From Pseudomonadota bacterium (lineage in GTDB: Bacteria > Pseudomonadota > Gammaproteobacteria > Burkholderiales > Sulfuriferulaceae): a stretch of 44,187 nucleotides of DNA. The translations under genes were made by a program, and so were the position numbers. How positions within the stretch are numbered: the first letter of the stretch is position 1; each line of letters starts with the position of its first letter. The notes under the pieces are model-generated. The model saw only the letters and a program-made list of their open reading frames with translations. It did no database searches and had not been told where the DNA came from. Positions 28 through 34,029 of this stretch are shown one piece after another. The stretch covers positions 1-44,187 of the forward strand of contig JAJYHV010000042.1 in NCBI GenBank assembly GCA_021790515.1, in the 5' to 3' direction.

Positions 28-56
28 AAAAACCGATGCGCTGCTTGTCCGCATCA
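28..56 (-). terminator. Rho-independent terminator of the lipoyl/thioredoxin operon
   Basis: On the minus strand a perfect 6-bp stem (GATGCG at 50-55 pairing with CGCATC at 35-40, 9-nt loop) is followed two bases later by TTTTT. The stem begins inside the stop codon of the thioredoxin-fusion gene, so transcription of the operon very likely ends here. Confidence 0.7.
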
Positions 57-755
57 GGGATGAACCCGCAATATAATACCATCCTGTTTGACCGGTTTTG
101 GCCACAGCACCGGCCACAAGCGCCAGGCAAAGATGCATAATGATAACCAGACCAATGTGCCGCCGACGATAATCAGTGCATGAATCGCCAGCATGAAGCC
201 CGCGACGTATCCCCACAAACCCAAATTGACCAGCGCCATTTGTAACCATGGCCAGTATCCCATGCGTATGGGTTGCACGGTGAATCGTGGCAGCATGTGG
301 GCGCCGAGGCCATAGGCGAGCATCAGCAAAAAACCGATGGTCATCAAATGCAAGGCCACTGGCCGTGTGGGACCGTCTGACAGCAAACTGCCCTGAATGA
401 CCAATCCCAATCCAGCCAGCGTAAGATAAATGACGGCCAGCACGGCAAACCAGCGGTTGTCTTCCGACATCAGAATACCGGCATTTTGCCCCTGACTCGC
501 CGTGCGTGTCGGAGCTTGGCTGACCCATTCCCGCGCTTGGGCGATGGTTGGTATCCCCAAACCACGCAATTCGCCATCGATCACCAGCGCCGGGACGGTT
601 TTGATGCGCAGGCGGCTGATCAACTCCCGACCTTCCGGTTGTGTCGCGTCGACGACTGCATAATCCACCTGTTTTTCTGTCGCCACTTGTTGCCAGACCT
701 GTTCGGCCTGCCTGCACGACTGGCACCAGGCAGACACCAATAATTCGACTTTCAT
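54..755 (-). CDS. Thioredoxin-like domain fused to a four-helix COX1-like membrane domain
   Basis: The protein has 233 aa. Residues 1-90 form a thioredoxin-like fold with a CQSC redox motif (11-14) and a cis-proline region (KTVPALVIDG). Four predicted membrane helices follow (about 101-124, 132-158, 166-188 and 191-216). Helices 2-3 carry two spaced histidines (LHLMTIGF and AHMLPRF) matching the product of 1257-1652 and the short proteins often annotated as cbb3-type oxidase subunit I-like. The full oxidase core is absent, so it is not an oxidase; haem binding by the two histidines is inference. GGGAG lies before the ATG. It is the last gene of a three-gene operon, 50 bp after the lipoyl-protein gene. 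A role in thiol/disulfide exchange coupled to a membrane electron carrier is a guess from the domain pairing. Confidence 0.75.
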   Translation of the reverse strand: MKVELLVSAWCQSCRQAEQVWQQVATEKQVDYAVVDATQPEGRELISRLRIKTVPALVIDGELRGLGIPTIAQAREWVSQAPTRTASQGQNAGILMSEDNRWFAVLAVIYLTLAGLGLVIQGSLLSDGPTRPVALHLMTIGFLLMLAYGLGAHMLPRFTVQPIRMGYWPWLQMALVNLGLWGYVAGFMLAIHALIIVGGTLVWLSLCIFAWRLWPVLWPKPVKQDGIILRVHP

Positions 756-805
756 ATCAACTCCCGAGTATTTGATTTGATCCGGGCTTCATAAAAAAAT
801 CCGGG

Positions 806-1252
806 TCAATCCTGACAGCGCATACACTGCACATCATAACGTTCTATCCATTTTTTCAGTGCATCTTGTGCCGCTTGCCCTGTCCACAGATGTTGCAATG
901 CTGCCTGGGCATCGTCCGGGCGTAATTGCACCAGCCAGGCATCGTGGTAAGGGTCGATATTGATCAGATTCGGGTTGGCCAGTACGGCTTCGTTACGAGC
1001 GACAATGGTGCCGGGACAGGGTGCAGGGATACCCCCTGCCCATTTGCCCGATTCGATGCGCGCCATCGGTTTTTTTTGTGCGCGCCATGTGCCCGGCTCT
1101 TTTATCCAGACATACTGGACTTTTCCCGACATGGTTTGCGCGGGATCAGTCAATCCGATGGTGAACAACCCGTTTTCTTCCGGTCGTACCCAGACATAAT
1201 CCAGGTCGTAATACAAATCGTCCGGTAATTCACAGCCACGAAATTCTCCCAT
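806..1252 (-). CDS. GcvH-like lipoyl carrier protein
   Basis: The protein has 148 aa with the H-protein/lipoyl fold. The lipoylation site is K70 in IESGKWAGGIPAP, in the place of the ESxKA motif of glycine-cleavage GcvH. The ESGKW form is, from memory, typical of GcvH-like proteins of sulfur oxidisers, relatives of the LbpA carrier of the sHdr pathway, rather than of true GcvH. No gcvT or gcvP is adjacent. The C-terminus ends in an unusual CxxC (CMRC, 143-146). The start ATG lies 4 bp after the stop of the upstream membrane-protein gene, with GGAG ahead of it, so translation is probably coupled. A thioredoxin-fusion gene follows, suggesting that the dithiolane of lipoate and the thioredoxin CxxC are redox partners (inference). 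The family is secure; the function is not known. Confidence 0.8.
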   Translation of the reverse strand: MGEFRGCELPDDLYYDLDYVWVRPEENGLFTIGLTDPAQTMSGKVQYVWIKEPGTWRAQKKPMARIESGKWAGGIPAPCPGTIVARNEAVLANPNLINIDPYHDAWLVQLRPDDAQAALQHLWTGQAAQDALKKWIERYDVQCMRCQD

Positions 1253-1256
1253 GATA

Positions 1257-1652
1257 TCAACTCCACGGTCCTTTTGGTTTGACAGTCAATATAATGTTGG
1301 CTGCAAACAGTGCAATGCCGATATAAGATAGCGTCCCACCCAGTAATACCAGCCAGTTCGTCAGCATCAACCAGCCGACAATCATCAAAGGTAATCCTGC
1401 GTTGGCAAAATACAGTTGCCAGGTTGCCATACGTTCTGAATACAAGGTTTTGCCGGAAAAGCGGGGCAACACGTGCAGGGCAATGCCATATATCATCATC
1501 AGAATGAACCCCAACAACATGATGTGGCCATGTATACGCGGCACATTGCCCGGAATCAGTCCGGGGTCGGCCAGAAATGTCAATGCGATGCCGCCGCCCA
1601 ATAATCCGTAAGCCAGCCCGATTGTGATGAACCATCGGTTACGTTTATGCAT
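1257..1652 (-). CDS. Short COX1-like four-helix membrane protein
   Basis: The protein has 131 aa, almost all in four hydrophobic helices (about 8-28, 39-65, 76-96 and 101-123). The motif RIHGHIMLLGF then ALHVLPRFSGK resembles one haem-ligand helix pair of haem-copper oxidase/NnrS-type proteins and recurs in the C-terminal half of the product of 54-755. At this length it cannot be a complete oxidase; it may bind haem or quinol, or act as a membrane anchor. It is the first gene of the operon, with AAGGAG before the ATG and a class II FNR/Dnr promoter about 25 bp upstream. No specific function is established. Confidence 0.7.
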   Translation of the reverse strand: MHKRNRWFITIGLAYGLLGGGIALTFLADPGLIPGNVPRIHGHIMLLGFILMMIYGIALHVLPRFSGKTLYSERMATWQLYFANAGLPLMIVGWLMLTNWLVLLGGTLSYIGIALFAANIILTVKPKGPWS

Positions 1653-1711: not shown

Positions 1712-1725
1712 TTGATATAGATCAA
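1712..1725. promoter_or_regulatory. Perfect FNR/Dnr box TTGAT-N4-ATCAA
   Basis: TTGATATAGATCAA matches the FNR/Dnr consensus exactly and lies between a Dnr-type regulator gene (+) and the divergent lipoyl/thioredoxin operon (-). Its spacing to the minus-strand -10 favours activation of that operon. Autoregulation of the regulator gene is also possible. Confidence 0.8.
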
Positions 1726-1772
1726 TTGGCTATATCAATTGGCTATATCAATTAGCCATATCAATTTGCCGA
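1721..1772 (+). repeat. Four tandem 13-bp repeats upstream of the dnr-like gene
   Basis: Two identical units of ATCAATTGGCTAT (1721-1733, 1734-1746) are followed by two diverged units, ATCAATTAGCCAT (1747-1759) and ATCAATTTGCCGA (1760-1772), and a partial ATCAATGAG that runs into the start codon at 1782. The first unit shares ATCAA with the FNR/Dnr box. Confidence 0.9.
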
Positions 1773-1781
1773 ATCAATGAG

Positions 1782-2507
1782 ATGAAACAGCCCGAATCAA
1801 ACATTGCTGCAAAATCTGCCATCAAAACAGGCTCGAAAATCGCGCTCGATACCAGCCAGTTCCGCTTGGCTCCTCTATTTCGGGATATCGAACACGCCAC
1901 GTTGGCCGATATCGCCACTCATGCCAGATGGCGTGACATTGATGCCGGAAAAACGCTTTTTTCACAAGGTGACGCGGGTAAACATTTTTTTCTGGTCAAG
2001 TCCGGCGCTGTCAAATTGTATCTGTTGTCTGAAAATGGACAGGAACATACGCTGGAAATCATCGGTCGTGAGCGTACATTTGCTGAAGCGGTGATGTTCA
2101 TGGGCGGCAATTATCCGGTCTATGCCAGTGCCTTGGAAAACAGTCGCTTGATTGCATTTGATTCCACCCATTTTCGTCGTTTGTTGCAAGATAACCCGCG
2201 CCTGTGTTTGAGCCTGCTCGCTGCCATGAGTCGGCAATTACACGCGCTGGTGGCCGATATCGATCGCATCAGCCTGCAAAGTGGTACCCAACGCTTGACG
2301 CAATATTTGCTTGCCCAACCTGCACACACGCATGATAACCGCCGTGTGTTACAATTACCGGCCAGCAAACAGGCCATCGCATCGTTGCTGGATATTCGCC
2401 CGGAAACCTTGTCACGCATTTTTTCCAGATTGACCGAAGAAGGCTTGCTGCAGGTTGAAGGCGATACGGTTACCATTTTGGCCGTCAACCGACTGAATCA
2501 GATGTAA
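1782..2507 (+). CDS. dnr: Crp/Fnr-family regulator, Dnr-like
   Basis: The protein has 241 aa: a cyclic-nucleotide-type sensor domain (about 30-150), a dimerisation helix and a C-terminal winged helix-turn-helix. The recognition helix contains E208, S211 and R212 (ETLSR), the E-SR signature of FNR/Dnr proteins that read TTGAT. The N-terminus lacks the cysteine cluster that holds the 4Fe-4S centre in true FNR, so a haem/NO-sensing Dnr type is likelier than an oxygen-sensing FNR. A perfect TTGAT-N4-ATCAA site lies in its own upstream region. The stop overlaps the next ATG (TAATG), so the NicO-like gene is probably co-translated. The family is certain; the NO ligand is inferred. Confidence 0.8.
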   Translation: MKQPESNIAAKSAIKTGSKIALDTSQFRLAPLFRDIEHATLADIATHARWRDIDAGKTLFSQGDAGKHFFLVKSGAVKLYLLSENGQEHTLEIIGRERTFAEAVMFMGGNYPVYASALENSRLIAFDSTHFRRLLQDNPRLCLSLLAAMSRQLHALVADIDRISLQSGTQRLTQYLLAQPAHTHDNRRVLQLPASKQAIASLLDIRPETLSRIFSRLTEEGLLQVEGDTVTILAVNRLNQM

Positions 2508-3349
2508 TGCTCAATATCCATGTTTTACTCAACCCTGCACACCCGGATACCGGCGTCGCTCTATTGACAGCGCTCCTGTTGGGGTTGGTGCATGGGGTAG
2601 TTCCTGACGAACACACCTGGCCGATTACATTCAGTTATGCCATGGGCAGCTATTCTACGCGCCGAGGTTTGTTTGCCGGACTGCTGTTTTCCCTGACCTT
2701 TACCCTGCAGCGTGCCATTGCCTGCGAATTGGCCTGGTATGGCCTGTCGCACTGGATGCAGAATGATAACCTGAACCGTATCTTGCTCATCATTATCGGG
2801 GTATTAATGACCGCGGGTAGCGGGTTGATGCAAGAAAAAGAAAAAGAAACATCACATCGTCACCCTGTTCTGGATGGCTTGACCAGCAGCATGCCTGCAT
2901 TACATGGCTTCATTGCCGGATGGGGTTTTGGTGCTTTTGCGCTGATTTTGTATACCACGCTGGCGCCTGCAATGCCAAGTGCAGCCTGGGGCTGGTTGCC
3001 GGGCGCGCTGTTTGGTCTGGGTACTGCTATCGTTCAGGCAACGGCAGGTGCTTTTTTTGGTCATCTGGCTGCGAGCAGGAAACTCTCGACGAAAGACCTG
3101 CGCAGTCTTGCCTTGTTTACTGCTGCCCGAACCCTGCGCTTTGGCGGCATTGCTTATGTGGCAGCCGGATTATCCAGTATCCTGTGGCCGGAATTGGCGC
3201 ACTGGCAATTGAATACGCATATTCCCATATATGGCATCGACCATTTGGATATTCCGCTCATTATTGCCATTACAGGGGTAGCCATTGTCGGGCTGGGCAG
3301 TTTTTTTTTCCGCCTGCGCCAACTCTCGTCCCTGCCCCACTCCCAATAA
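2507..3349 (+). CDS. NicO/TauE-like polytopic membrane protein
   Basis: The protein has 280 aa with about six or seven hydrophobic segments. The first helix contains HGVVPDEH (29-36), close to the HX4DH metal-binding signature of nickel/cobalt exporters of the NicO/RcnA type, and a second histidine-bearing helix occurs in the other half (ALHGFIAGWGFGAF). A sequence YGIDHLDIP lies near the C-terminus. A metal transporter or a cytochrome-biogenesis-like copper/heme exporter are both possible. It overlaps the regulator gene by one base. The transposon begins 21 bp after its stop, so any native downstream terminator or genes have been displaced. Confidence 0.55.
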   Translation: MLNIHVLLNPAHPDTGVALLTALLLGLVHGVVPDEHTWPITFSYAMGSYSTRRGLFAGLLFSLTFTLQRAIACELAWYGLSHWMQNDNLNRILLIIIGVLMTAGSGLMQEKEKETSHRHPVLDGLTSSMPALHGFIAGWGFGAFALILYTTLAPAMPSAAWGWLPGALFGLGTAIVQATAGAFFGHLAASRKLSTKDLRSLALFTAARTLRFGGIAYVAAGLSSILWPELAHWQLNTHIPIYGIDHLDIPLIIAITGVAIVGLGSFFFRLRQLSSLPHSQ

Positions 3350-3370: not shown

Positions 3371-3408
3371 GGGGTAGACCCAACAGTCGTGTCACCAGCC
3401 GCCATCTG
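3371..3408 (+). repeat. Left 38-bp terminal inverted repeat of the transposon
   Basis: It starts GGGGTAGACCCAACAGTCGT and ends GCCGCCATCTG. It pairs with 9084-9121 with three mismatches, two of them in the last three inner bases. The GGGG start and 38-bp length are typical of Tn3-family ends. Confidence 0.9.
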
Positions 3409-3469
3409 CGGTTAGGCGCGGGCCGACCGCGTCGCGATACTGCTGTAGGTATTGCCTCAAAGTATATTG

Positions 3470-3505
3470 CGAGTGATAATTACTCGTATTTGAATACTAT
3501 CACTC
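3470..3505 (+). promoter_or_regulatory. Operator-like palindromes upstream of the NRAMP gene
   Basis: CGAGTGATAATTACTCG (3470-3486) is a near-perfect 17-bp palindrome. GTATTTGAATAC (3486-3497) is a second. GAGTGATA (3471-3478) pairs exactly with TATCACTC (3498-3505) across both. The AT-rich block ends 6 bp before the ATG at 3512. It fits a metal-responsive repressor site (Fur/MntR/DtxR class), but no regulator is encoded in the element. Confidence 0.5.
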
Positions 3506-3511
3506 ACGACT

Positions 3512-4753
3512 ATGACAGCCTTGACTCTACCCGCCCGAACTCGCTGGGCGCAATTTCTGGCCGTTGCTGGTCCGGGGATCGTCGTGATGTTCGCGGATAC
3601 CGATGCCGGAAGCATCATGACGGCCGCACAAAGTGGCGCGCAATGGGGCTATCGCCTGCTCCTAATACAGCTCATCCTCGTTCCGGTGTTGTTCCTCGTG
3701 CAGGAACTCACCGTGCGCTTGGGCGTCGTGACGGGGAAGGGACATGGCGACCTGATCAGACAGTATTTCGGCACAGGCTGGGCTTGGCTGTCGGTTGGCA
3801 CTTTGCTAATCGCCTGCGTCGGCGCGCTGCTGTCCGAGCTGGGCGGCTTGGCCGGCGTTGGCATCATGTACGGCATACCCGCTTGGCTCACCATGGTCGT
3901 GGTCGTGCTGGGACTCTCGGTCATGGTCTACACGGGTTCCTACCTTTCTGTCGAACGCATCGCCATGGCGCTAGGCGCTTTTGAACTGGTCTTTGCTTGG
4001 GTGGCTTGGCACGCCCATCCCGACTCGGACGCCATAGCAGCGACGGTGCTGAAGCTACCCTTGGCCGACAAGAATTATCTGTTCCTGATCGCGGCGAATA
4101 TCGGCGCGGTGATCATGCCCTGGATGGTGTTCTACCAGCAGTCTGCTGTGGTCGAGAAGGGGCTCGTCATTGAGGATTTGCCTGCGGCGCGTTGGGATAC
4201 CGCAGTGGGTGCAGTCGTCACGCAAGTGATCATGGCAGCGGTCTTGATCGTCACGGCGGCAACATTGGGCAAGGTGGGTAGTCAAACGCCGCTCGACACC
4301 GTGCAGCAAATTGCCGACGCGATCACGCCGTACCTCGGCGAACGCGCAGGCCGGCTGTTGTTTGGCATGGGCATGGTAGGCGCATCGCTGGTTGCGGCCA
4401 TCGTCGTGACCTTAACCGCCGCGCGTGCGCTCGGAGAAGTCATGGGTTATCACCACTCGCTGGAGCACACGCCGCGCGAGGCTCCGTGGTTCTATGCGGT
4501 CTACACGATTGCGCTGATTGTTGCAGCCCTGACGGTGGCATCGGGCGCCAACCTGGTATCGTTGGGTGTCGGCGTCCAAGTCATGAATGCGCTGCTTTTG
4601 CCGGTCGTGCTGGGCTTTCTTTTCCTGCTTGCCAAGCGGCTGCCGGAACCCTACCGCCTGAAAGGTGCCTACTCGTGGCTGGTCGGTATCGTCATCGCTG
4701 CCACGGTTCTGCTGGGCGTCTACGCAGGTATTGCCGGCCTTGTTGCCGGCTGA
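3512..4753 (+). CDS. NRAMP-family divalent metal transporter with non-canonical metal site
   Basis: The protein has 413 aa and about 11 membrane helices of the LeuT-like NRAMP fold. The TM1 metal-site motif, normally DPGN, reads DTDAGS (29-34), and the TM6 motif, normally MPH, reads MPWMVFYQQSA (202-212). The intracellular signature GVVTGKGHGDLI (71-82) is retained. Changes at both ligand positions are reminiscent of NRAMP-related clades with altered metal selectivity, so manganese import should not be assumed. It is the first gene inside the transposon with a palindromic operator-like region just upstream. Base composition differs from the flanking host genes, consistent with transfer. Confidence 0.8.
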   Translation: MTALTLPARTRWAQFLAVAGPGIVVMFADTDAGSIMTAAQSGAQWGYRLLLIQLILVPVLFLVQELTVRLGVVTGKGHGDLIRQYFGTGWAWLSVGTLLIACVGALLSELGGLAGVGIMYGIPAWLTMVVVVLGLSVMVYTGSYLSVERIAMALGAFELVFAWVAWHAHPDSDAIAATVLKLPLADKNYLFLIAANIGAVIMPWMVFYQQSAVVEKGLVIEDLPAARWDTAVGAVVTQVIMAAVLIVTAATLGKVGSQTPLDTVQQIADAITPYLGERAGRLLFGMGMVGASLVAAIVVTLTAARALGEVMGYHHSLEHTPREAPWFYAVYTIALIVAALTVASGANLVSLGVGVQVMNALLLPVVLGFLFLLAKRLPEPYRLKGAYSWLVGIVIAATVLLGVYAGIAGLVAG

Positions 4754-4795
4754 GATGCACTGGATTACCCTGTCACTGAGATGTCAGGTAGGCGC

Positions 4796-5263
4796 TTAAG
4801 TTGGTTCCCTGTTCCATTGCTCCCCGGACCTCGGTATCCAGGTCGCGCGCAGATGGACTTCCCCATGCCGGAACTTGTCCAGCATGCGCAGCACGGTCAC
4901 GTTGACGGCCAACGATGCGAGCGAGAATGCCATCATGGCCGGCCCCAGCGGTTCACTGCCAATAAAGCCACGGCGCACCACGTCGAGCACGATGCCTACG
5001 CCGAGAACCAGCAGCAGCGATCCACTCCAACGCGCCGCATTGCGCTTGAAGACCGCTCCATGCGACACCGCCAGCAGTGCGAGTGCGTAGGCCGAAGCAT
5101 CGGCCAGCATGTCGAGCGCGTCCGCCATCAGCCCGCTCGACTGCGCCCACAAACCGGCGGCTGTGCCGATGACGAACATCGCCGCGTTGAGACCCAGCGC
5201 TATCCGCAGCGTGGCGCGCTCTCCTTCGGACTGCACCGATACGTTGGAGCATTCACAAGCCAT
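4796..5263 (-). pseudogene. CDF-type cation efflux transporter, C-terminally truncated
   Basis: The reading frame has 155 aa. Residues 20-140 match the first four helices of small cation-diffusion-facilitator proteins, including LMADALDMLADASAYALALL, where the transport aspartates lie. At HLRATWI the family sequence should continue into helix 5 with its HxxxD site. Here it is replaced by a short unrelated tail (PRSGEQWNREPT), so helices 5-6 and any C-terminal domain are missing. It is convergent with the NRAMP gene, 42 bp away. The pair may be remnants of a metal-homeostasis module. The N-terminus has CEC (residues 3-5), seen in some metal-binding efflux proteins. Confidence 0.65.
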
Positions 5264-5354
5264 CGTTATTCCTTATTGGGGATGTAAGCCGAAACCGCCG
5301 AGAATTCCGTCACTCGCTGACAGTGGGAGTGAAGCTGCGATTTGCGACACTGCC

Positions 5355-5392
5355 AGCGTAGAAGGCCCAACACTCGTGTCGGCTGCCATCTG
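5355..5392 (+). repeat. Internal degenerate copy of the transposon terminal repeat
   Basis: CCCAACACTCGTGTC (5366-5380) matches 14/15 bases of the left end and GGCTGCCATCTG (5381-5392) matches 10/12 after a 3-nt gap; GTAGA also occurs at 5358-5362. It has the same orientation as the left end but lacks the GGGG start. It lies directly beyond the stop of the TA-associated gene. Confidence 0.55.
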
Positions 5393-5394
5393 AA

Positions 5395-5744
5395 TCATTC
5401 GATTTCATCACGGTCGGCGTAGGACAAGCTCTCAGGGTACAACGTGGTCAACTGGGACAATGTTTCCTGGACTTGCTCAAGCGCCGTCATCATGCCAAGA
5501 ACCCGATCTTCCAGATCGACCGCGAGGTCGAACAGATCGGCCACCTGGCCTGATTGAAGACGGCCATCGCCAGTTGGTGCAGTTTCAGCAGGTCGTCGCG
5601 CAGTTGCGGCGGTGCCCCATCCTCGTTGTCGTTCAAGTCACTACGCAACTCGTCCATGGCATCAACCGCGCGTAGCAGCGCCGTGGTGTCAAAGTTCTCG
5701 GGCGATAGCTCGTCCCATTCGTCGTCGGTGATGTTGGCTGCCAT
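5395..5744 (-). pseudogene. Third gene of the RelE/XRE operon, frameshifted
   Basis: The intact start gives MAANITDDEWDELSPENFDT and runs to AVFNQ. The frame then changes at about 5548-5552. A one-base shift restores a plausible continuation (QVADLFDLAVDLEDRVLGMM, ending in YADRDEIE) and stops at 5395, for about 116 residues. Unshifted, the product is 84 aa with an unrelated tail ending at 5490. It is acidic and helical, with no signal peptide or membrane helix. It starts 5 bp after the antitoxin stop. I recognise it only as a small companion of Tn3-borne RelE/XRE modules; its role is unknown. A sequencing error could produce the same picture. Confidence 0.6.
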
Positions 5745-5749
5745 AAATC

Positions 5750-6073
5750 TTACGCGGCAAACACGACAGCGATATGTCCGACTGAAGCCGAACGGCGCGC
5801 CGGGCCGACAACGATTTGTACATCACGGCCAAGCCGGGCCAGACAATCAAGCATTTTCGCTTCACTGATCCCGCGAAACTGACCGCGCAGCACCTTGGAT
5901 AGCTTGGATTGAGGAATGCCAAGAACATCGGCGGCCCGCTGTTGGCTCCATTTGCGGCCTTTGATGATCTCGCCGATCTTGGTCGCAAGCTGCGCCTTGA
6001 CCATCATTTCCTCGGCATCGGCAAAGCCTAAATCGGCGTAGACGTTGCCGGAACCTTCTTCAATTTCGATCAT
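5750..6073 (-). CDS. XRE-family antitoxin (HigA/Ata-like)
   Basis: The protein has 107 aa. It has a helix-turn-helix with KWSQQRAADVLGIPQSKLSK at about residues 41-60, the layout of antitoxins paired with RelE/Gp49-type toxins. The start MIEIEEGS is chosen because its ATG overlaps the toxin stop (ATGA) and a purine-rich stretch (AAAGGAGA) lies just upstream; a longer in-frame extension to 6181 runs back through the toxin gene. Toxin-first order is usual for this class. The partner toxin has lost its N-terminus, so the antitoxin is effectively an orphan unless it represses another operon. Confidence 0.75.
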   Translation of the reverse strand: MIEIEEGSGNVYADLGFADAEEMMVKAQLATKIGEIIKGRKWSQQRAADVLGIPQSKLSKVLRGQFRGISEAKMLDCLARLGRDVQIVVGPARRSASVGHIAVVFAA

Positions 6074-6330
6074 TTCGTTTCTCCTTTGGCGTGCCCTTCT
6101 GCTGCTTTCAATCGTTCCCGAATCAAGTCCATGTCTGGTTTTGGTGTCGCGATGCCATGCGTCGATTTCTTCTGAAAGCAATGCAGCACATAAACCGTAT
6201 CACCGAATTTGACGGTATAGATAGCACGGAACGTGCTACTGCCCGAATCTTCGATGACTTCAAGAATACCTGCCGAACCGAAACCCTTTAACGGCTTGGC
6301 CTGTTCATGCTTCTTGCCGACGCTAAGGCT
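6070..6330 (-). pseudogene. RelE/Gp49-like toxin, 5' end missing
   Basis: The frame ending at 6070 encodes KPLKGFGSAGILEVIEDSGS, then STFRAIYTVKFGDTVYVLHC and FQKKSTHGIATPKPDMDLI, the core of the Tad/HigB-type RNase toxins found in Tn3 elements. Upstream it hits TAG at 6331-6333, and the sequence beyond bears no resemblance to the expected first 40 or so residues. No start codon precedes the conserved core. It overlaps the antitoxin start (ATGA). Loss of the N-terminus should inactivate it. The break point (about 6330) is also where the divergent MNT/HEPN region begins, suggesting a recombination joint. Confidence 0.65.
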
Positions 6331-6428
6331 CTAATACGACTTCTCGCAAACGAGGGATTTTGAGAGGCCACACCAGACCACCAACGTGACACGGGAAATC
6401 AAGGCGTTGCGATTCTCGAAAATAGTTC

Positions 6429-6457
6429 TTGAAATGTTATTCTCAATCGCATACCAT
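6429..6457 (+). promoter_or_regulatory. Sigma-70 promoter for the MNT/HEPN operon
   Basis: TTGAAA (6429-6434), a 17-bp spacer and TACCAT (6452-6457) precede the MNT gene start at 6488, with AAAGGA upstream of the ATG. The block 6331-6428 between the broken toxin and this promoter holds no recognisable gene. Confidence 0.5.
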
Positions 6458-6487
6458 TTCAACGAGTTTCGATAAGAAAGGACACTC

Positions 6488-6778
6488 ATGCGACCGTCCG
6501 TTGTGCTCGACATGAAGCGAAGTGCAGTGCGCGAAGCGGTGAACCGCTTTCGCACGGCGAACCCGCGCGTCTTCGGTTCGGTGCTGCATGGCACCGACCG
6601 GGATGGCAGCGACCTTGATCTGTTGGTTGATGCGCTGCCTGGTGCTACGTTATTGGACTTGGGCGGTCTGCAAGACGATCTGGAATCCCTGCTCGGAATT
6701 CACGTTGATTTGCTGACACCCGGCGACTTGCCGCCGAAGTTCCGGGCCAAGGTGCTTGCGGAGGCGCAGCCGGTATGA
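6488..6778 (+). CDS. mntA: MNT-domain nucleotidyltransferase antitoxin
   Basis: The protein has 96 aa with the minimal nucleotidyltransferase signature: FGSVLHGTDRDGSDLDLLVD (29-48), in which G30-S31 and the D42/D44 pair form the NTP/metal site. In characterised HepT-MntA systems the antitoxin adds AMP to a tyrosine of the HEPN toxin. All visible catalytic residues are present, so this copy looks functional. Its stop overlaps the start of the HEPN gene (ATGA at 6775). It has its own promoter facing away from the broken RelE/XRE operon. Confidence 0.85.
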   Translation: MRPSVVLDMKRSAVREAVNRFRTANPRVFGSVLHGTDRDGSDLDLLVDALPGATLLDLGGLQDDLESLLGIHVDLLTPGDLPPKFRAKVLAEAQPV

Positions 6779-7161
6779 CTGAGAACCGTCTTCCTGATTA
6801 CATCGATCACATACAGCAGGCCGCAGCGGATGTGTGCAGCTTCGTGGAAGGGTTGGCCAAGGACGACTTCCTGGCCGACAAGCGCACCCAGCAGGCCGTC
6901 ATCATGAGCATCATCATCATCGGCGAAGCCGCCACGAAGGTGATGGAGGGCTATGCCGTGTTCACGCAGGCGCACCCCGAGGTGCCGTGGCGCAACATGC
7001 GCGGCATGCGCAACCGAATGGCCCACGGCTATTTCGACATCGACCTCAATGTGGTGTGGGAGACGGCACAGGAATGGCTGCCGGAGTTGCTGAAGCAACT
7101 GCCTGCCGTGCGTCAGAATGCCGGCGATGAAGATCAGAATGGGGATGGGGTGGAGCCGTGA
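6775..7161 (+). CDS. hepT: HEPN-domain toxin (HepT-like RNase)
   Basis: The protein has 128 aa and is all-helical. The HEPN active-site motif Rx4H followed by a tyrosine is present as RNRMAHGY (79-86), the arrangement in which Tyr is the AMPylation target in HepT proteins. Length and domain match the DUF86 family. It overlaps the MNT antitoxin by 4 bp upstream and a lipoprotein metallopeptidase gene downstream (TGATG at 7159-7163). Intact coding suggests a live addiction module stabilising the transposon. Confidence 0.85.
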   Translation: MTENRLPDYIDHIQQAAADVCSFVEGLAKDDFLADKRTQQAVIMSIIIIGEAATKVMEGYAVFTQAHPEVPWRNMRGMRNRMAHGYFDIDLNVVWETAQEWLPELLKQLPAVRQNAGDEDQNGDGVEP

Positions 7162-7970
7162 TGAATGTAGTAAGGAAAATATTGAGATCAGGCCTTCTCA
7201 GGATCATTCTTTTGTCGTTCGCCGCAAGTCTCGCTAGCGGATGCAGCGTCATCCAAGGAGGAAAACTGCTTGCGCCAGAAAGCTTTGGTCTGGAACAAGT
7301 GACGCCAAACATCTACGTCGAATCCGGAGCAGACGAAGCGATGCGTTCGCAGTTGCGCGAAGCGACGAATAGAGCAGAAAACGCTATACGTATGGCATAT
7401 GGGAGTGTCAATTCACACCCAGTAGTCTATGCTTGTATCACCGAGCATTGCTTTGAATCTTTTGGAGGCAGAACCGCTATCGCCAAGGTATATGGCGATA
7501 GCATATTGCTGTCTCCACGAGGATTGAATTGGCATTTCATCGCACATGAATGGTCGCATGCTGAATTGCGCTCGCGCCTAACATTCAGCGCTTGGTTGCA
7601 TCTCCCCCAATGGTTCGACGAGGGACTTGCAGTCGCGATAAGCGAAGCTCCAGAGCATTCCGAAGCCTACTATCAATCGATGATTACCTCCAATATCCCT
7701 CATCCGACAACCGAAGAACTGCATTCCCTCAAGTCTTTGAGGGAATGGCTTGCCGCTATTCACAAATATGGCGATGACAAGGATGCTGAACGCAGAGCCA
7801 AGGGCGAGCAGGAAACCCACATTCTTTATGCAATGGCCGGTCATGCAGTACGCCCGTGGCTCGCAAAAGCGGGGAAGGATGGGTTGCTCACCGTGATAGC
7901 AAGGTTGAATGCCGGTGAAGATTTCAATCCTGCATGGATAGATAACGATGTAGCAGGCGGGACTCAGTGA
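7161..7970 (+). CDS. Lipoprotein zinc metallopeptidase, peptidase MA-like
   Basis: The protein has 269 aa from the ATG that overlaps the HEPN stop; a GTG one codon earlier is also possible. The N-terminal hydrophobic segment ends in LASGC, so Cys28 is probably lipidated. HEWSH (129-133) is the HExxH zinc motif, and WFDEGLAVA (about 151-159) supplies the downstream glutamate, as in the peptidase MA/gluzincin group (HExxH...WxxEG). The active-site residues are intact. The substrate is unknown. Its translational coupling to a HEPN/MNT pair is unusual; it may be a third component or merely a cargo gene. Confidence 0.65.
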   Translation: MNVVRKILRSGLLRIILLSFAASLASGCSVIQGGKLLAPESFGLEQVTPNIYVESGADEAMRSQLREATNRAENAIRMAYGSVNSHPVVYACITEHCFESFGGRTAIAKVYGDSILLSPRGLNWHFIAHEWSHAELRSRLTFSAWLHLPQWFDEGLAVAISEAPEHSEAYYQSMITSNIPHPTTEELHSLKSLREWLAAIHKYGDDKDAERRAKGEQETHILYAMAGHAVRPWLAKAGKDGLLTVIARLNAGEDFNPAWIDNDVAGGTQ

Positions 7971-7995
7971 AGAACACCTTTGACGATCGTAAGCC

Positions 7996-8553
7996 ATGTT
8001 GATTGGTTATGCCCGTGTGTCGACGCAGGATCAAAACCTTGAGTTGCAGCGCGAAGCCCTGACCAAAGCCGGGTGCCAGAAGGTCTTTGAAGACAAGGTG
8101 AGTGGTACGCGGGCCGACCGCCCCGGTCTGGCCAAGGCACAGGAAATGCTGCGCGAGGGCGACACCCTTGTGGTCTGGAAGCTGGATCGTCTGGGCCGCA
8201 GCGTCAAGCAACTGGTCGATCTGATTGGCGAGTTGCACAAGCAGGGCGTCCAGTTCAAGAGCTTGACCGATGCCATCGACACCGGCACGCCCTCTGGCCG
8301 ATTCTTCTTCCACGTCATGGCTAGCCTCGCCGAAATGGAGCGTGAGCTGATCGTTGAGCGCACTCGCGCCGGGCTGGATGTCGCCCGGCAGCTTGGTCGC
8401 AAGGGTGGACGCAAGCCAAAAATGACTGAAAGCAAGATCGAATCCGCCAAGAAGCTGCTGGCCAGCGGCGTGCCAGCCAAGGACGTGGCCAAGAACCTCG
8501 GCGTGTCCGTTCCCACGTTGTACCGCTGGGTTCCGGCTTCTGCGCACGCTTAG
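7996..8553 (+). CDS. tnpR: Serine resolvase/invertase of Tn3 type
   Basis: The protein has 185 aa. The catalytic serine is S9 in GYARVSTQDQNLELQ, with the conserved DRLGRS segment near residue 60 and a C-terminal helix-turn-helix (KDVAKNLGVSVPTLYRW). It resolves cointegrates at a res site. Its stop codon lies inside the Tn21-type terminal repeat at 8549-8586, so it probably came with that incoming element and not with the transposase remnant. The 25-bp gap upstream is too short for a complete res site. Confidence 0.85.
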   Translation: MLIGYARVSTQDQNLELQREALTKAGCQKVFEDKVSGTRADRPGLAKAQEMLREGDTLVVWKLDRLGRSVKQLVDLIGELHKQGVQFKSLTDAIDTGTPSGRFFFHVMASLAEMERELIVERTRAGLDVARQLGRKGGRKPKMTESKIESAKKLLASGVPAKDVAKNLGVSVPTLYRWVPASAHA

Positions 8554-8586
8554 CGTACTTTAAATTCCGTTTTCTGAGACGACCCC
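8549..8586 (-). repeat. Tn21-type 38-bp terminal repeat, unpaired
   Basis: On the minus strand it begins GGGGTCGTCTCAGAAAACGG, the well-known end of Tn21/Tn501-group elements, and ends CGCTAAG. It differs from the 3371/9121 repeats. It lies between the resolvase and the transposase fragment with GGGG facing the fragment. No partner repeat is found inside the transposon. Confidence 0.85.
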
Positions 8587-9081
8587 TATGACCAGATGGT
8601 CAAGTACGCTATGGCGCTACGCTTGGGCACGGCGGAAACCGAAGCCATCCTGCGGCGCTTCACCAAGAAGAACGTGCAGCACCCGACCTACAAGGCGTTC
8701 GCCGAATTGGGCAAGGCGATCAAGACCATCTTCCTGTGCCGTTATCTGCACGACGAAGCGTTGCGCCGGGAAATCAACGAAGGGTTGAACGTGGTCGAGC
8801 AATGGAACGGCGCGACCGACTTCGTGTTCTTCGCCCGCAGGGGCGAGATGGCGAGCAACCGCCGCGAGGATCATGAGGTCAGTATGCTCGCGCTGCACCT
8901 GATCCAGAACTGCATGGTCTACATCAACACACTGATGATTCAGAAGGTGCTGGCCCAGCCGCACTGGCAAGGCAGGTTCACGCCGCGCGACTACGCCGCC
9001 CTGACGCCGCTGATCTGGGAACACGTCAATCCGTACGGACGGTTCGACCTCGACATGAACACCTGGCTCGACCTGCCGTAG
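8587..9081 (+). pseudogene. tnpA: Tn3-family transposase, C-terminal fragment
   Basis: The open frame begins with [20 protein letters not shown] directly at the boundary of the Tn21-type repeat and runs to the normal C-terminus ([19 protein letters not shown]), close to the right inverted repeat as in intact Tn3 elements. About 165 of the roughly 1000 family residues remain. The first ATG is 8596. The conserved NRREDHE segment carries the final part of the DDE domain, but the earlier aspartates are lost. Inactive. The abrupt start shows that insertion or recombination of another Tn3 element removed the 5' part. Confidence 0.9.
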
Positions 9082-9083
9082 CC

Positions 9084-9121
9084 GAAATGGCGGCTGGTGA
9101 CACGACTATTGGGTCTACCCC
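9084..9121 (-). repeat. Right 38-bp terminal inverted repeat of the transposon
   Basis: It is the complement of the left repeat with 35/38 identity and begins two bases after the transposase stop. The next five bases, TACTT, resemble the TGCTT on the left flank. Confidence 0.9.
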
Positions 9122-29637: not shown

Positions 29638-32226
29638 TCATGACACGCATTGCCATTGCTTGTCCGTGTTGCGCTGGTAGATGCGCCCGTGCTCATCGTC
29701 GATTTGAAACAGGTACAGCCACCGGTTTTCGACGAGCTCGCGCACGAGCTCATGTTTGGCAATGATTCGATCGATCTCCGGTTTCGGCGCTTCGAGAAAC
29801 ACGTTCAATCGTAACGGTTCATGCACCCATCGTTCACCATTATGGAGCGACTGTAATGGCAATCCGACGCGTAGATCACCAGCATTTCCCTCCAATACGC
29901 CGATAGAGCCGCCCACGATATTGTGCAAGGCTTTATTGCCGCTACCAAAGCGTTTATTATCGACAACGGATCCGTAATACTGCATATTAATCCAGTTGGC
30001 GACCACCATCGGCGCAGTCATGATGAGCTCCAAAATACCAAAGCCTTCATCTTTGCGCCATTCGTAGTCGTGCAAAAACGACCTTCCGGAAAGATTGATC
30101 CCTATGGTTCTGGAACGGGGCGCGGCAATAAAAGCGGCATTGCCGGCAAGACCCCATTCCGGATAAACCTGCGACCAGTCCCGGCTACGCTCCTGAATCA
30201 GGGCGTCAACAACTTCCGCAGGCGAATCCGGAATGCCGAGCAAAACGGAGCGCTCCATCCGGGCCAATCGCCCTGCCTGCGTGAGCCATTGACGCAATTG
30301 TTGCAAATCTTGTGCGTGCGTTGATTCCAACCCTTCGATATCGAACAAGGACACCTCATCGACTGTCGTATCATGCAAAGCCCCGACAAACCGGGTGTCT
30401 GCCGGTATGTGAATACCCTTTTGCGCAAGTTCTTCGCGCACTTCGGGATCATTCAGCAAAGTAGCGATGATTCGGGCGCTGACTTCACCGGTTTGGCCTG
30501 CACAGGCCCCGCAATCGAGCCCTGTGGCATGCGGATTGTTGACCGTGCTGCTGCCATGCCCGACCAGCAGAACCAATCGCGCAAAATTGCTGGTCATCGA
30601 CATGGCTCTTAATGTCGTTTCCGCCGAAGTGCCACGGTTTTCCAAGGGGATACCGACTATCTGGTTTTCAATCGATTTTTGCCTGGTCTGGGTATTTTTC
30701 GGTTCATGAGAAACCGCCTCCAGGCTCGGAACGAGGCGACCACTGAATTTTTGGTCGATCCCTTTGGTTGCCGGATGAGGCACAGGACGGCTCCATCCGA
30801 AGCTATCTCCAAGCAATTTCGGACCATAAATCAGTCCACTTGATTCGACGAACGAAAAACACGATGAGGGCGAACTCTTGAATGCCTTCCAGTTATCGGC
30901 GCTGTGCAGGCGGCGACGACGGCGACTGATAGCGTTTTCCACTTCCCGGACACTAGCGCCGCGAATATGCTCGTGTCCCCGCCAGCTGGGGGTCAGCAAC
31001 ACTGGCAGATGAATCCGCGGCTTGGATGCTCCCAGTGGGACAAATTCCATGAAAGCGCCGAAAAATCCTGCGAAACCGATTGTTTGCACAGTAGGTGCGA
31101 CCGTTTCAAACGCTCTCCGGTAAACCTCTGATCGCACATCAATGCAGAATGCGGCCTGTACAGCCGGGCGAACCGGGACAGACGTTCTTGCCAACGCCTG
31201 CCGTTCAGGATGGGCAAGTTCCGCAATGATTTTCTTCTGGTAACCGAGTTCAAAAGCCGTTTGCAGGGCAAAATCCAGTTGTGTGCGTTCTTGCGCGCCG
31301 TGTGCCGACGCTTGTTGCAGAGTTAGCCGCCACGCTTTTCCCAGCGCATCGTTCTGTCGCGTGTTCAGCAGGAGCAGTTCCCAGGCAAGGCGGATGGCGA
31401 GCAAGGCGACGATGGAGTCTTCCTGCTCATCAACCAATTCGCGCTCCCAGCGCAGGTAACGTGCCCAGGACGCCCAGCCGCCGATATTCATCAAAGCGGC
31501 AAGCAGGTAATCTTCCAGCATGTCCGCCGGTATGGCGAGCGTATGCACCGCCAGAGCAATTGTGTCTATCGGCAGAGCAGGCAATGCAGCGACTGCTGCC
31601 CTGATACCATACAAACCCATTATCCTGGGGTTCAGGTCGATTCCGGCAAAATGACGCCACGCATCATAAAGGGATTCATTCTGCCATGGCATCGACCAAA
31701 TGGCTTGCCCTTGATCGAAATAGGCGGCGGAAAACTGGCTGATTTGTTCTACGACAAACTTGGTCCATTGGGTGTTGCCTATCTCTTCCAAAACATCCGA
31801 AACGAGCGGGATCGGGGTCGGCAATATGGATGTGTCGTTGACGAGAGCCGTTTCCACCTCTGCAGCGCTCATATTGAGCCCCTGTTGCTTTAGCGCATGT
31901 TCCAGATCGGCCCGGGCAATACGGCCTGTCGAGATTTGCTCGCGGTAATAACGACGCGGCATGACCAGGGAAGATCTGGCCACCCGGCCAAGCGTCGCGT
32001 TCGCCTGTTCAAAGTCCTGATCGCGCAGGCCGAAATAAGGACTGACCGCCACAAAAGCGTCAAGCGGCCAGAGCGGAGCGATTCGCTGGCATACTGATTT
32101 CACCGTAGCTTCAAGCAGAGCTGATGCATGCGCACCACCGATTCTGTCGGTTGCATGATCATCGTTGATGCCGGCATCCATGACACTGGCTGACCACTTC
32201 GAAAGTATGGTCGCCGAGCGGTTCAT
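29638..32226 (-). CDS. dabA: DabA, carbonic-anhydrase-like subunit of the DAB inorganic-carbon pump
   Basis: The protein has 862 aa (DUF2309). The predicted zinc/active-site residues are in place: C361 and D363 in FCIDVRSE, H557 in LLVGHGSS and C572 in GLDCGACAG, matching the Cys/Asp...His/Cys set established in Halothiobacillus DAB2. The complex is thought to hydrate CO2 vectorially to bicarbonate in the cytosol, driven by ion flow through DabB. The start overlaps the dabB stop (ATGA), so stoichiometric translation is likely. Its presence points to CO2 fixation in the host. Confidence 0.93.
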   Translation of the reverse strand: MNRSATILSKWSASVMDAGINDDHATDRIGGAHASALLEATVKSVCQRIAPLWPLDAFVAVSPYFGLRDQDFEQANATLGRVARSSLVMPRRYYREQISTGRIARADLEHALKQQGLNMSAAEVETALVNDTSILPTPIPLVSDVLEEIGNTQWTKFVVEQISQFSAAYFDQGQAIWSMPWQNESLYDAWRHFAGIDLNPRIMGLYGIRAAVAALPALPIDTIALAVHTLAIPADMLEDYLLAALMNIGGWASWARYLRWERELVDEQEDSIVALLAIRLAWELLLLNTRQNDALGKAWRLTLQQASAHGAQERTQLDFALQTAFELGYQKKIIAELAHPERQALARTSVPVRPAVQAAFCIDVRSEVYRRAFETVAPTVQTIGFAGFFGAFMEFVPLGASKPRIHLPVLLTPSWRGHEHIRGASVREVENAISRRRRRLHSADNWKAFKSSPSSCFSFVESSGLIYGPKLLGDSFGWSRPVPHPATKGIDQKFSGRLVPSLEAVSHEPKNTQTRQKSIENQIVGIPLENRGTSAETTLRAMSMTSNFARLVLLVGHGSSTVNNPHATGLDCGACAGQTGEVSARIIATLLNDPEVREELAQKGIHIPADTRFVGALHDTTVDEVSLFDIEGLESTHAQDLQQLRQWLTQAGRLARMERSVLLGIPDSPAEVVDALIQERSRDWSQVYPEWGLAGNAAFIAAPRSRTIGINLSGRSFLHDYEWRKDEGFGILELIMTAPMVVANWINMQYYGSVVDNKRFGSGNKALHNIVGGSIGVLEGNAGDLRVGLPLQSLHNGERWVHEPLRLNVFLEAPKPEIDRIIAKHELVRELVENRWLYLFQIDDEHGRIYQRNTDKQWQCVS

Positions 32227-33851
32227 GATTTGGCTCCTTTTTGTTTGACATATATCGGAAAAACCCGTTGTACCAGCAGCGAAAACGGGATATCGACATA
32301 CAAACCGTTATAAAGATGCACGTAAGCTCGACGCACGAAAGGGTATCTGTCCAGCTCAGGCAAGCTTTGCTGAATCAGCAGAATGCCAAAAAATACCAGC
32401 ATCACCAGCCCGATGAGAACGAACTGGCCGGGGCCGTTGATCAAAGGCATGGCCGGCAAGCTCGTTGCCAGCATGAAATGAAACACGGCATGCAAGCTGA
32501 AATAAGCGGTACAGACCAGCGCACTGAGACCGGCCGCGCGCGCGATGAAAGCCGCTCCCATGCCCGCCTTGAAAGACTGGAGCAATAACTGGGTCATGGC
32601 TACCGCGAGGATTACGCCCAAAGCCAGGAGTGCGGGCTGACCCTTTGGAGTCACACCAAAGGCTGTCCCGACGCCGATCGTTATCAGACCTGCGAAAGCA
32701 AGCACGACGATCCATTGCCAAAACGTGGCCATGGCGTGCGCCGGATGCACGGCTGGTGCGCGGAAAATATCAATGGCGCTGCCCGAAGACAGAAAAGCGT
32801 GCGCTTTGTACAAAGAGTGCGCGACCAAGTGCAGCATTGCCAGACTGTACAGACCAAATCCACATTCCAGCAGCATGAATCCCATCTGGGCAGTGGTACT
32901 CCAGGCCAAAAATACTTTGATGCTGGTTTGGGTCAGCATGACCAGCCCGGCGGCAGCGATCGTGACTAATCCGATGATGACCAGAGCGTTGGAAGCATCA
33001 ACGGCCTGCGACATGATCGGACTCATGCGAATGATCAGGAAAGCGCCGCCATTGACGATGCCAGCATGCAGCAAGGCCGACACAGGCGTGGGAGCCTCCA
33101 TTACCTGAATCAGCCAGCCTTGCAAAGGGAATTGGGCCGTTTTAAGTACGGCGGACACCACAATGAGCCCGCTGGCCCATTTGAGTGAAAGCGGGAACGG
33201 CCCGCTCATTGCTGCCATGGCATGAAACAGCGCATCGAACGTCATCGTGTGCAGGGTAGCGCCAATAAGCAACACGGCTATCAGCAGGCTAAGTTCTCCC
33301 ATCCGGCTGACAATCAATTTTTTACGTGCAGCAAGTACAGCCCCGGCCCGCTCCGGATAAAACATCAGGAGGTGATGCAAGCAAAGGCTAGTAGTCATCC
33401 ATACCAATACGAACATGAGCATATTGCCGGACACGATCAACGTCAGGATGGATGCGAGCGTAAGATTCAGCCAGGTATAAAAACGCCCCTGATGTTTTTC
33501 ACCATGAAGATAGTTGCGTGCGTAACGAGAAACCACGAATCCGACGAAAGAAACAAGACAGAGCATTATCACCGTGACTGTATTGATATAAATGCTCAGA
33601 GCCGCCGCCCCCATGTTTCCAGGCAATGCAAAGGAGAATGGAGTTATCGTCAGAGCTTTTCCGCGAGCGGCATACAATAGTGCGGCAAGCCCTGCGCAAA
33701 AAAAAGACAATCCGGCAACAGCACTACTCATGCGCGCTATACGTCGGGCATGTTTGCCCGCCAGCACACTCCCGAAAAGCCCCATCGCCCAAAGTAGTAA
33801 TGGTACGACAGAGATGAGCACAAGAATGATGGAATTCGGGTTTAATGGCAT
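32223..33851 (-). CDS. dabB: DabB, NuoL-like membrane subunit of the DAB pump
   Basis: The protein has 542 aa and about 14 helices of the NuoL/MrpA proton-translocating type, including the lysine-bearing helix LKTAQFPLQGWLIQVMEAPT and the VSALLHAGIVNGGAFLI helix. It supplies the ion path to DabA. ATG at 33851 is chosen because GGAG lies 7 bp upstream; an in-frame start at 33884 would add 11 residues. No other NADH dehydrogenase genes are adjacent, which excludes complex I. Confidence 0.92.
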   Translation of the reverse strand: MPLNPNSIILVLISVVPLLLWAMGLFGSVLAGKHARRIARMSSAVAGLSFFCAGLAALLYAARGKALTITPFSFALPGNMGAAALSIYINTVTVIMLCLVSFVGFVVSRYARNYLHGEKHQGRFYTWLNLTLASILTLIVSGNMLMFVLVWMTTSLCLHHLLMFYPERAGAVLAARKKLIVSRMGELSLLIAVLLIGATLHTMTFDALFHAMAAMSGPFPLSLKWASGLIVVSAVLKTAQFPLQGWLIQVMEAPTPVSALLHAGIVNGGAFLIIRMSPIMSQAVDASNALVIIGLVTIAAAGLVMLTQTSIKVFLAWSTTAQMGFMLLECGFGLYSLAMLHLVAHSLYKAHAFLSSGSAIDIFRAPAVHPAHAMATFWQWIVVLAFAGLITIGVGTAFGVTPKGQPALLALGVILAVAMTQLLLQSFKAGMGAAFIARAAGLSALVCTAYFSLHAVFHFMLATSLPAMPLINGPGQFVLIGLVMLVFFGILLIQQSLPELDRYPFVRRAYVHLYNGLYVDIPFSLLVQRVFPIYVKQKGAKS

Positions 33852-34029
33852 GACAATCTCCGTATAGGGCATGGTGAGATACACTCAATCGATTCGCCGG
33901 CGCGCACGAAAAGTCGATAGATCCTTGGTATTATGGAGGTACCATTTGTTTAATAAAAGTTAAATATATTTACTTTGATATTTAATCAAAATTTATTATG
34001 CCAGCAATACCCATCCGCTACGTCATCTT
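33852..34029 (-). promoter_or_regulatory. dab operon control region with two AT-rich palindromes
   Basis: A weak -10 CATAAT (33930-33935, minus) with TTTATT 16 bp upstream suggests a start near 33923. Upstream lie AAGTTAAATATATTTACTT (33957-33975), palindromic but for one base, and TTTGAT-N5-ATCAAA (33974-33990). They would sit near -43 and -59, positions typical for a LysR-type activator such as CbbR. No regulator gene is adjacent. Confidence 0.45.

Follow-up and report, generated by a model that had tools for sequence, protein, structure and literature searches.

Subunit I of the haem-copper oxidases and NO reductases has 12 helices in three arcs, with the ligands of copper or non-haem iron in the middle arc, and the regulator DNR senses NO through haem. 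According to passages of Cao et al. (2018, PMC6067878), the lipoate-binding proteins (LbpA) have as their hallmarks a lysine and a Cys near each end, their genes are described inside or beside hdr-like clusters, and the LbpA proteins of sHdr are proposed to be sulfur-binding carriers. Passages of Rodionov et al. (2005, PMC1274295) give CTTGATnnnnATCAAG as the DNR site of denitrifying Proteobacteria, and the same box as the FNR consensus too. Here, we describe a locus in which a gene for an LbpA-type protein probably stands under NO-responsive control together with genes for a membrane-bound thioredoxin and for relatives of one oxidase arc.

The window, i.e., the whole stretch of 44,187 nucleotides that was analysed, is the entire contig C12 of the host draft genome (2.0 Mb, 96% complete), with window position 1 at contig base 1, and the operon's downstream flank in the host falls beyond the contig. 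ORF calling placed three minus-strand genes at 54..1652, exactly where the first-pass annotation had put them, and confirmed the motifs that it had pointed out, namely ESGKW at K70 and the C-terminal CMRC (143-146) of the GcvH-like protein; the thioredoxin (Trx) domain carries CQSC (Table 1). The gaps are 4 nt between the short COX1-like and GcvH-like genes and 50 nt between the GcvH-like and Trx-COX1-like genes, and the three genes are predicted to form one operon with the regulator gene divergent.

Table 1. Features of the cassette locus, in window coordinates
Feature	Position (nt)	Strand	Basis
Short COX1-like four-helix protein, 131 aa	1257..1652	-	ORF; COX1 Pfam match; CcoN arc match
LbpA-type lipoate-binding protein (LbpA3, our own label), 148 aa	806..1252	-	Pfam GCV_H; tree; alignment of 24
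Predicted lipoylation site: K70 codon, in ESGKW	1043..1045	-	kept in 24/24 aligned rows
C-terminal CMRC (C143, C146) of LbpA3	815..826	-	24/24 aligned rows
Trx-COX1/NnrS-like fusion, 233 aa	54..755	-	ORF; Pfam; AF2 model
Dnr-type Crp/Fnr regulator, 241 aa	1782..2507	+	Pfam; best PDB match DNR 3dkw
DNR/FNR-type box TTGATATAGATCAA in divergent promoter region	1712..1725	.	consensus as in passages of PMC1274295
13-nt tandem repeats with ATCAA half-sites, between box and regulator gene	1721..1778	.	

The GcvH-like protein (Pfam GCV_H, 8e-33) is, judged from its sequence, a third clade of LbpA and not a GcvH. In a tree of 98 sequences, for which the program warned that columns were few and that some joins had long branches and in which groups were named by best query match before tree building, all 38 cassette proteins form a single clade (99/96) that is sister to the sHdr LbpA2 (98/96), with LbpA1 outside and true GcvH far apart (100/100). 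This agrees with the first-pass annotation, which had taken the protein for something other than a glycine-cleavage carrier. The best solved relatives among structure matches are GcvH, and GcvH and LbpA3 have the domain and the lysine in common; LbpA3 differs from GcvH in its separate clade, in ESGKW as against ESVKAAS in the host GcvH, in its extra Cys, and in having no gcvT or gcvP next to it. Like the LbpA1 and LbpA2 of sHdr (passages of PMC6067878 and of Tanabe et al. 2023, PMC10332631), LbpA3 is a GcvH relative with a single lipoyl domain, the conserved lysine (K70, in all 24 aligned rows), a Cys near each end (C7 and C143, both in 24/24 rows), and, as in the sHdr LbpA of the present genomes, ESGKW. 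A further Cys, C146, completes an invariant CMRC, as against one Cys within the last 14 residues of the LbpA1 and LbpA2 paralogues compared. Apart from this invariant C-terminal CxxC, LbpA3 is unlike LbpA1 and LbpA2 in its DNR-type promoter, in its partners, which are a membrane thioredoxin and one-arc proteins, and in its place off the sHdr cluster: in the host, the cassette lies on C12 and the sHdr cluster on C61, in G003 and G004 they share a contig but are widely separated, and in other drafts with both LbpA3 and sHdr LbpA2 they fall on different contigs, which gives no distance. Since the gene lies outside the shdr cluster, we regard LbpA3 as a new subtype, neither LbpA1 nor LbpA2. The lipoyl protein is thus a member of a known family, and so lipoate in sulfur oxidation has a precedent, a point on which the first-pass annotation needs correcting.

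The host encodes four full-length GcvH-like proteins, i.e., one true GcvH, two LbpA in the sHdr cluster, and LbpA3, along with a fifth partial match within a 647-aa frame. The true GcvH, which carries ESVKAAS, is encoded in a gcvT-gcvH-gcvPA set on another contig, so the description of the cassette protein as lacking glycine-cleavage partners holds at the locus but not for the host. Because the sHdr LbpA proteins of these genomes also carry ESGKW, this motif marks the LbpA family in these hosts. The host sHdr cluster, which we recognized by gene order and by family matches that were mostly below the NCBI cut-offs, contains rhodanese, TusA, two HdrC, two HdrB, DsrE, LbpA2, LbpA1, and LipS1, with an HdrA-like gene assigned from sequence reading alone. 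Both sHdr and LipS genes, for which the first-pass annotation had advised looking, are therefore present, the LipS1-like gene being cut by the contig end and below its family cut-off. The host also has cbb3-like and cNOR genes.

The short COX1-like protein matches Pfam COX1 at 3.7e-7 (29.8 bits against a curated cut-off of 34.8), and all 39 short proteins do so at E <= 0.01. HGH (H41, H43) and H60 are invariant in the 39 rows, so that the HxH ligand motif of haem-copper oxidases is there, and a structure model (mean pLDDT 72) has four predicted helices, not the 12 of a three-arc protein. In a search of the PDB, the short-protein profile matched CcoN (3mk7) with a whole-chain E of 3.5e-4 and 0.052 for the best single stretch; matches to the other arcs of this chain were not significant, and NorB matched weakly (0.049). 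In one pairwise profile comparison with the host's CcoN-like protein, the best alignment covered the last arc (E 1.9e-8, probability 95%), with HGH aligned to the HVH of CcoN, the two histidines of which (helix X) we take to ligate the high-spin and low-spin haems in CcoN and NorB. Direct comparisons with host NnrS and NorB were weak (probability 4% and 35%), and the NnrS Pfam domain stayed under its cut-off of 28 bits both in the window short protein (16.2 bits) and in a Trx-less relative at locus L089 (22.6 bits). Foldseek returned no match at E 0.001 for the short-protein model, the hits being generic helical bundles and some oxidases.

The fusion consists of an N-terminal thioredoxin domain (nt about 755-516; Pfam Thioredoxin_3, 2.2e-12) with CQSC at residues 11-14, followed by four helices (residues 98-217), in an AF2 model with a mean pLDDT of 80.8. 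H136 and H153 are kept in 30/30 rows of this family and CxxC in 26/30, the other four rows having no Trx domain. The membrane part had been called COX1-like; Pfam COX1 does not match it, and none of the 30 family members match COX1 at E 0.01, but profile comparison makes it homologous to the short COX1-like protein (E 1.6e-22), of whose HxH pair it keeps only the second His, H136, plus H153. NnrS matches weakly in 18/30 members, and a direct comparison with host NnrS is also weak (probability 20%). The two Foldseek matches of the fusion at E <= 0.001 are GPCR entries (6ibl), which presumably carry a fused thioredoxin, and most of the other matches listed are thioredoxins. Both membrane proteins carry more Lys and Arg at their two termini and in the middle loop than in their remaining two loops, and this charge pattern would place the N-termini, and hence the Trx domain, in the cytoplasm alongside LbpA3.

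From these comparisons, each of the two membrane proteins is best described as a lone arc of four helices, comparable to a third of a haem-copper oxidase. They share with NnrS and with haem-copper oxidases such as CcoN and NorB the four-helix arc with HxH and a further His; they differ in having one arc (131 aa) instead of three and in being split over two proteins, one of them fused to thioredoxin. The pair has no middle arc and therefore presumably no copper or non-haem-iron site, and without an oxidase middle arc these proteins cannot be an ordinary oxidase or NO reductase. The first-pass label of COX1-like membrane modules thus stands as a statement of homology, but the proteins are one-arc relatives of CcoN, NorB, and NnrS rather than oxidases.

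Among solved structures, to which the comparison was confined, the best relative of the regulator is Pseudomonas aeruginosa DNR (3dkw; 6.9e-40, 140 bits), followed by one at 2.3e-28 and 102 bits, so that the regulator is closest to DNR and is accompanied by TTGATnnnnATCAA sites. In the window, 66 nt separate the box centre from the start codon (ATG) of the short COX1-like gene. A single box is not significant by itself, as 26 of 100 window shuffles give at least one match to the looser pattern, and so it is the conservation of the box that constitutes the evidence. Allowing up to two mismatches to TTGATnnnnATCAA, we located a box ahead of the short gene in 41 of 51 loci; of the 33 loci whose regulator is adjacent, 31 have one. 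In 38 of the 41 box-bearing loci, the distance between box centre and ATG is 57-72 nt. A previous set with some redundancy gave such a box in 36 of 44 upstream regions as against 6% of mononucleotide shuffles. The Dnr control that had been proposed for the cassette is strongly supported by this conservation. ATCAA-like half-sites near the box are also visible in a close relative (L074).

Across the host genome, the looser pattern TTGAYNNNNRTCAA occurs at 31 sites compared with 4 for a reversed control, and many of these sites fall within genes. Eight sites have perfect arms, four inside open frames and four before genes, where gene calls are longest open frames and "inside a gene" is accordingly approximate. 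Of the four before genes, one belongs to the cassette operon, one precedes norC of norCB by 70 nt, one falls in the region that separates nnrS from a hemerythrin gene, and the last is 157 nt ahead of a transporter-like gene (L215). With the same box at norCB and at nnrS/hemerythrin, the cassette very likely shares control with NO genes, to judge from these sites, and this common box, which the first-pass annotation did not include, changes the likely role of the cassette. In its Dnr-type regulator, its TTGATnnnnATCAA boxes, and its company of nor and nnrS targets, the cassette resembles the DNR regulon of denitrifiers; unlike the cassette, that regulon as given in passages of PMC1274295 has no lipoyl, thioredoxin, or one-arc COX1-like member, and neither "thioredoxin" nor "glycine cleavage" occurs in the main text of that paper.

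To survey conservation, we used 52 loci, one per cassette, with duplicate genome copies removed, 51 of which have the short gene. The GcvH-like gene adjoins the short gene in 38 of the 51, the Trx domain is found in 45, and the regulator is adjacent in 33 (31 divergent and 2 on the same strand). All 37 loci with an LbpA-type gene that no contig end truncates have the Trx domain too. The expectation of a conserved neighborhood is thereby borne out, and the counts over these loci rule out chance neighborhood. As a unit, however, the three-gene set stands only in part: it is conserved, but the LbpA gene supplements a wider core and is absent in 13/51 loci, including those of the sHdr-LbpA2 genomes G050 and G094, and so the membrane core works without LbpA3. 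The loci fall into grades, namely LbpA3 with Trx, Trx without LbpA3 (Sulfuricella and relatives, G050, and G094), and neither; the four loci with neither (L089, L123, L128, and L130) also have no adjacent regulator and no box. In the host's family, the short COX1-like protein is matched in 16 of 18 genomes, all within one genus, and the GcvH-like gene adjoins the short gene in all 16 (cut by a contig end in G009). A draw from the class gave matches in 12 of 369 genomes, host included, with a GcvH-like gene in 10 of the other 11. At E 1e-30, a search of 398 genomes of the phylum left three, namely the host, G693, where an LbpA2-like protein has HdrB-like and DsrE-like neighbors as read from ORFs, and G986, where the LbpA3 gene follows a hemerythrin gene, a lone thioredoxin gene is divergent, and the 3.4 kb available has no COX1-like gene.

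Our tentative preference is to view the operon as a Dnr (NO)-responsive LbpA-thioredoxin-membrane redox module of sulfur-oxidizing Proteobacteria that would protect or repair lipoyl and persulfide sulfur oxidation. NO would activate Dnr and thus switch on the operon, and LbpA3 would be lipoylated on K70 by the sHdr-type lipoylation enzymes of the host, LbpA proteins of sHdr being lipoylated by sLpl(AB), LipS1, and LipS2. The dihydrolipoyl dithiol of LbpA3, together with its C-terminal CxxC, may then strip NO, oxidation, or sulfane-sulfur adducts off the sHdr thiol carriers, or LbpA3 may instead replace NO-poisoned LbpA. The cytoplasmic thioredoxin domain, seated on the membrane pair of one-arc haem-copper-oxidase/NnrS-like proteins, would reset LbpA3, and the pair could bind a b-type haem close to the periplasmic side and mediate electron transfer between the dithiols and the membrane (quinone or NO). 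The operon would thereby tie lipoyl sulfur chemistry to NO stress. NO induction, lipoylation, haem binding, the direction of electron flow, and the substrate are what we infer here, and the redox relay from a lipoate-bound intermediate to a membrane carrier is a hypothesis. Passages of Seim et al. (2022, PMC9974485) describe, for mammalian systems, lipoic arms modified by NO donors and reactive nitrogen species and lipoyl enzymes inhibited, an effect that DTT partly reverses; this is a precedent for the chemistry, not for the cassette operon. The module reading draws on the LbpA2-sister clade with its LbpA hallmarks, the conserved box and its occurrence at norCB and nnrS/hemerythrin, the hemerythrin genes at cassette loci, the concentration of the cassette in sHdr LbpA2 genomes, and the homology and charge pattern of the membrane proteins. 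Counting against the NO-responsive module are the loci without LbpA3 (13/51), the 9 of 19 cassette genomes of the order with no cNorB match, a cNorB link that reaches p 0.11 among LbpA2 genomes, the perfect-arm site before the transporter-like gene and the many looser sites within genes, the G986 LbpA3 gene with no COX1-like gene in 3.4 kb, and the short protein's want of a significant Foldseek match.

An extension that we consider unlikely is that the two one-arc proteins form a minimal b-haem membrane enzyme of a new kind, which would swap electrons with the lipoyl protein via the fused thioredoxin and use dithiol electrons that stem from sulfur oxidation to reduce NO or S-nitroso/persulfide adducts. 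If so, lipoyl sulfur chemistry would be tied directly to NO removal, and the pair would be a living example of the single arc from which three-arc oxidases may have evolved.

A possible but doubtful alternative is that LbpA3 is a condition-specific carrier of sulfane sulfur to or from sHdr under nitrate respiration or low oxygen, with Trx and the membrane pair supplying or removing electrons and NO acting as the inducing signal only. The company that the cassette keeps would suit such a carrier: among 300 genomes of the order, it occurs in 14 of 20 with sHdr LbpA2 compared with 5 of 280 without, where "cassette" means a short COX1-like match above 140 bits (19 of 35 genomes matching) and the genomes of the cassette, cNorB, and LbpA2 searches are taken as one draw since request and handles agree. 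The sister position of LbpA3 to LbpA2 in the tree and the proposal, in passages of PMC6067878, that sHdr LbpA proteins bind sulfur point the same way. Against this, the LbpA3 gene lies away from the sHdr LbpA2 gene, the same box at hemerythrin, nnrS, and norCB points to NO handling, and a thioredoxin is a better match for reduction than for sulfur transfer. A strict coupling of LbpA3 to sHdr can be rejected, because G050 and G094 have LbpA2 and the cassette without LbpA3, G115, G321, and G322 have an LbpA3 cassette with no LbpA2 match, and six LbpA2 genomes have no cassette; the first two of these comparisons draw on 34 handles, among them five repeats of a genome already counted (G313, G316, G320, G325, and G326). 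As dsrA matches above the family cut-off in 22 of these 34 handles, host included, many hosts with or without LbpA3 also carry dsr genes.

That the regulator senses low oxygen or another signal and not NO, so that the module serves a microaerobic or anaerobic switch, strikes us as quite unlikely. In the order, cNorB was found in 10 of 19 cassette genomes compared with 63 of 281 others (p 0.01) and, when only LbpA2 genomes are counted, in 6 of 14 cassette carriers compared with 0 of 6 non-carriers (p 0.11), in tests that ignore phylogeny and do not count qNOR. Together with the LbpA2 tally, which likewise ignores phylogeny, these numbers suit a tie to sHdr-type sulfur oxidation well and a tie to NO respiration only weakly. 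The 9 of 19 cassette genomes of the order that have no cNorB match at E 1e-40 (qNOR being outside this count) lend themselves to a low-oxygen signal, as does the fact that the box is the FNR consensus as well (passages of PMC1274295); they also exclude a cassette that strictly follows cNOR, and so NO respiration is not required. On the other side stand the greater closeness of the regulator to DNR (140 versus 102 bits) and the presence of the same host box before norCB and between nnrS and the hemerythrin gene, and NO stress without denitrification would fit the cassette distribution.

We give little weight to the idea that the membrane proteins and thioredoxin help to assemble or protect cNOR or cbb3 by inserting haem or copper, LbpA3 acting as accessory reductant. 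The homology to the CcoN arc and the cbb3-like and cNOR genes of the host are in keeping with it, but the same 9 of 19 cassette genomes lack a cNorB match, cbb3 is far commoner than the cassette, and assembly gives no reason for a lipoyl protein. Finally, a stray gcvH paralogue beside unrelated genes has a negligible claim, since what it can cite is the GCV_H Pfam match, while the gene order is kept in many lineages and the separate LbpA clade rules it out as the identity of the protein.

In full-text searches of open-access literature, with hits judged by title and opening of the abstract, we did not find LbpA joined with NO control, thioredoxin, or one-arc oxidase relatives, and the same combination was not found in the portions covered of PMC1274295, PMC10332631, PMC9974485, PMC12423496, PMC12285272, PMC6067878, and PMC6382920. 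The nearest lead, in passages of PMC12423496, is that in Hyphomicrobium the loss of the sulfur-oxidation repressors sHdrR or SoxR lowers denitrification transcripts. With the present locus, the range of the sulfur-oxidation lipoate-binding proteins reaches past the sHdr cluster to an operon that probably responds to NO, in which LbpA is paired with a dedicated thioredoxin and single-arc oxidase relatives. If the NO-responsive module is right, it would join sulfur oxidation to NO stress in a way not yet described, would explain how sHdr sulfur oxidizers facing NO sustain NO-sensitive lipoyl chemistry, and would offer a small system in which thiol-to-haem electron transfer and the modular origin of haem-copper oxidases could be tested.

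The gene 3' of the cassette varies among relatives, being a hemerythrin gene in G003 and, from its sequence, a release-factor-like gene in G010, and hemerythrin genes occur in 14 of the 52 cassette loci. Two loci are irregular in the membrane genes themselves: in G005 (L076), the start of the Trx domain is in a different frame from the rest, possibly by an assembly error, and L159 has one hybrid of both membrane proteins that may be an assembly artefact.

The promoter region of the cassette contains 13-nt tandem repeats with ATCAA half-sites that adjoin the Dnr box, and a similar form of these repeats is present in genome G010. On the other side of the divergent Dnr-type regulator, the end of the regulator gene is overlapped by the gene for a 280-aa membrane protein, whose sole domain match is a weak one to DsbD_2. 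This gene adjoins the regulator in G010 too, and it is found near the regulator in genomes G008 and G011.

Features and their coordinates
Feature	Sequence	Position
Tandem repeats	window	1721-1778
280-aa membrane protein	window	2507-3349
5.75 kb element	window	3371-9121
dabA and dabB-like gene	window	29638-33884
131-aa protein	locus L159	1471-1863
LbpA3 with its hemerythrin and thioredoxin neighbours	locus L160	1495-2730

The window also contains a 5.75 kb element with 35-nt inverted repeats at both ends (97%). Between these repeats are three single genes (Nramp, HTH_37 and a short one of CDF type), a nucleotidyltransferase paired with HepT, a resolvase and a Tn3 transposase of which the 3′ part is present. 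In the close relative G010 (locus L074), the same flanking genes are separated by merely ~0.2 kb. Further along the window, dabA and an adjoining proton-antiporter-type gene (dabB-like) are a pair for inorganic carbon uptake.

In genome G012, the cassette is present twice (L072 and L073), with a Dnr box at one of the two copies and an adjacent regulator at neither. Locus L159 encodes a single protein whose N-terminal half resembles the short COX1-like protein and whose second half resembles the membrane part of the fusion; a search of this locus for LbpA3 and Trx found neither. At L160, from a genome whose relation to the host is listed at phylum level only, a hemerythrin gene is followed by LbpA3, a lone thioredoxin (CPTC) is divergent, and TauE-type and SLAC1-type membrane genes are nearby.
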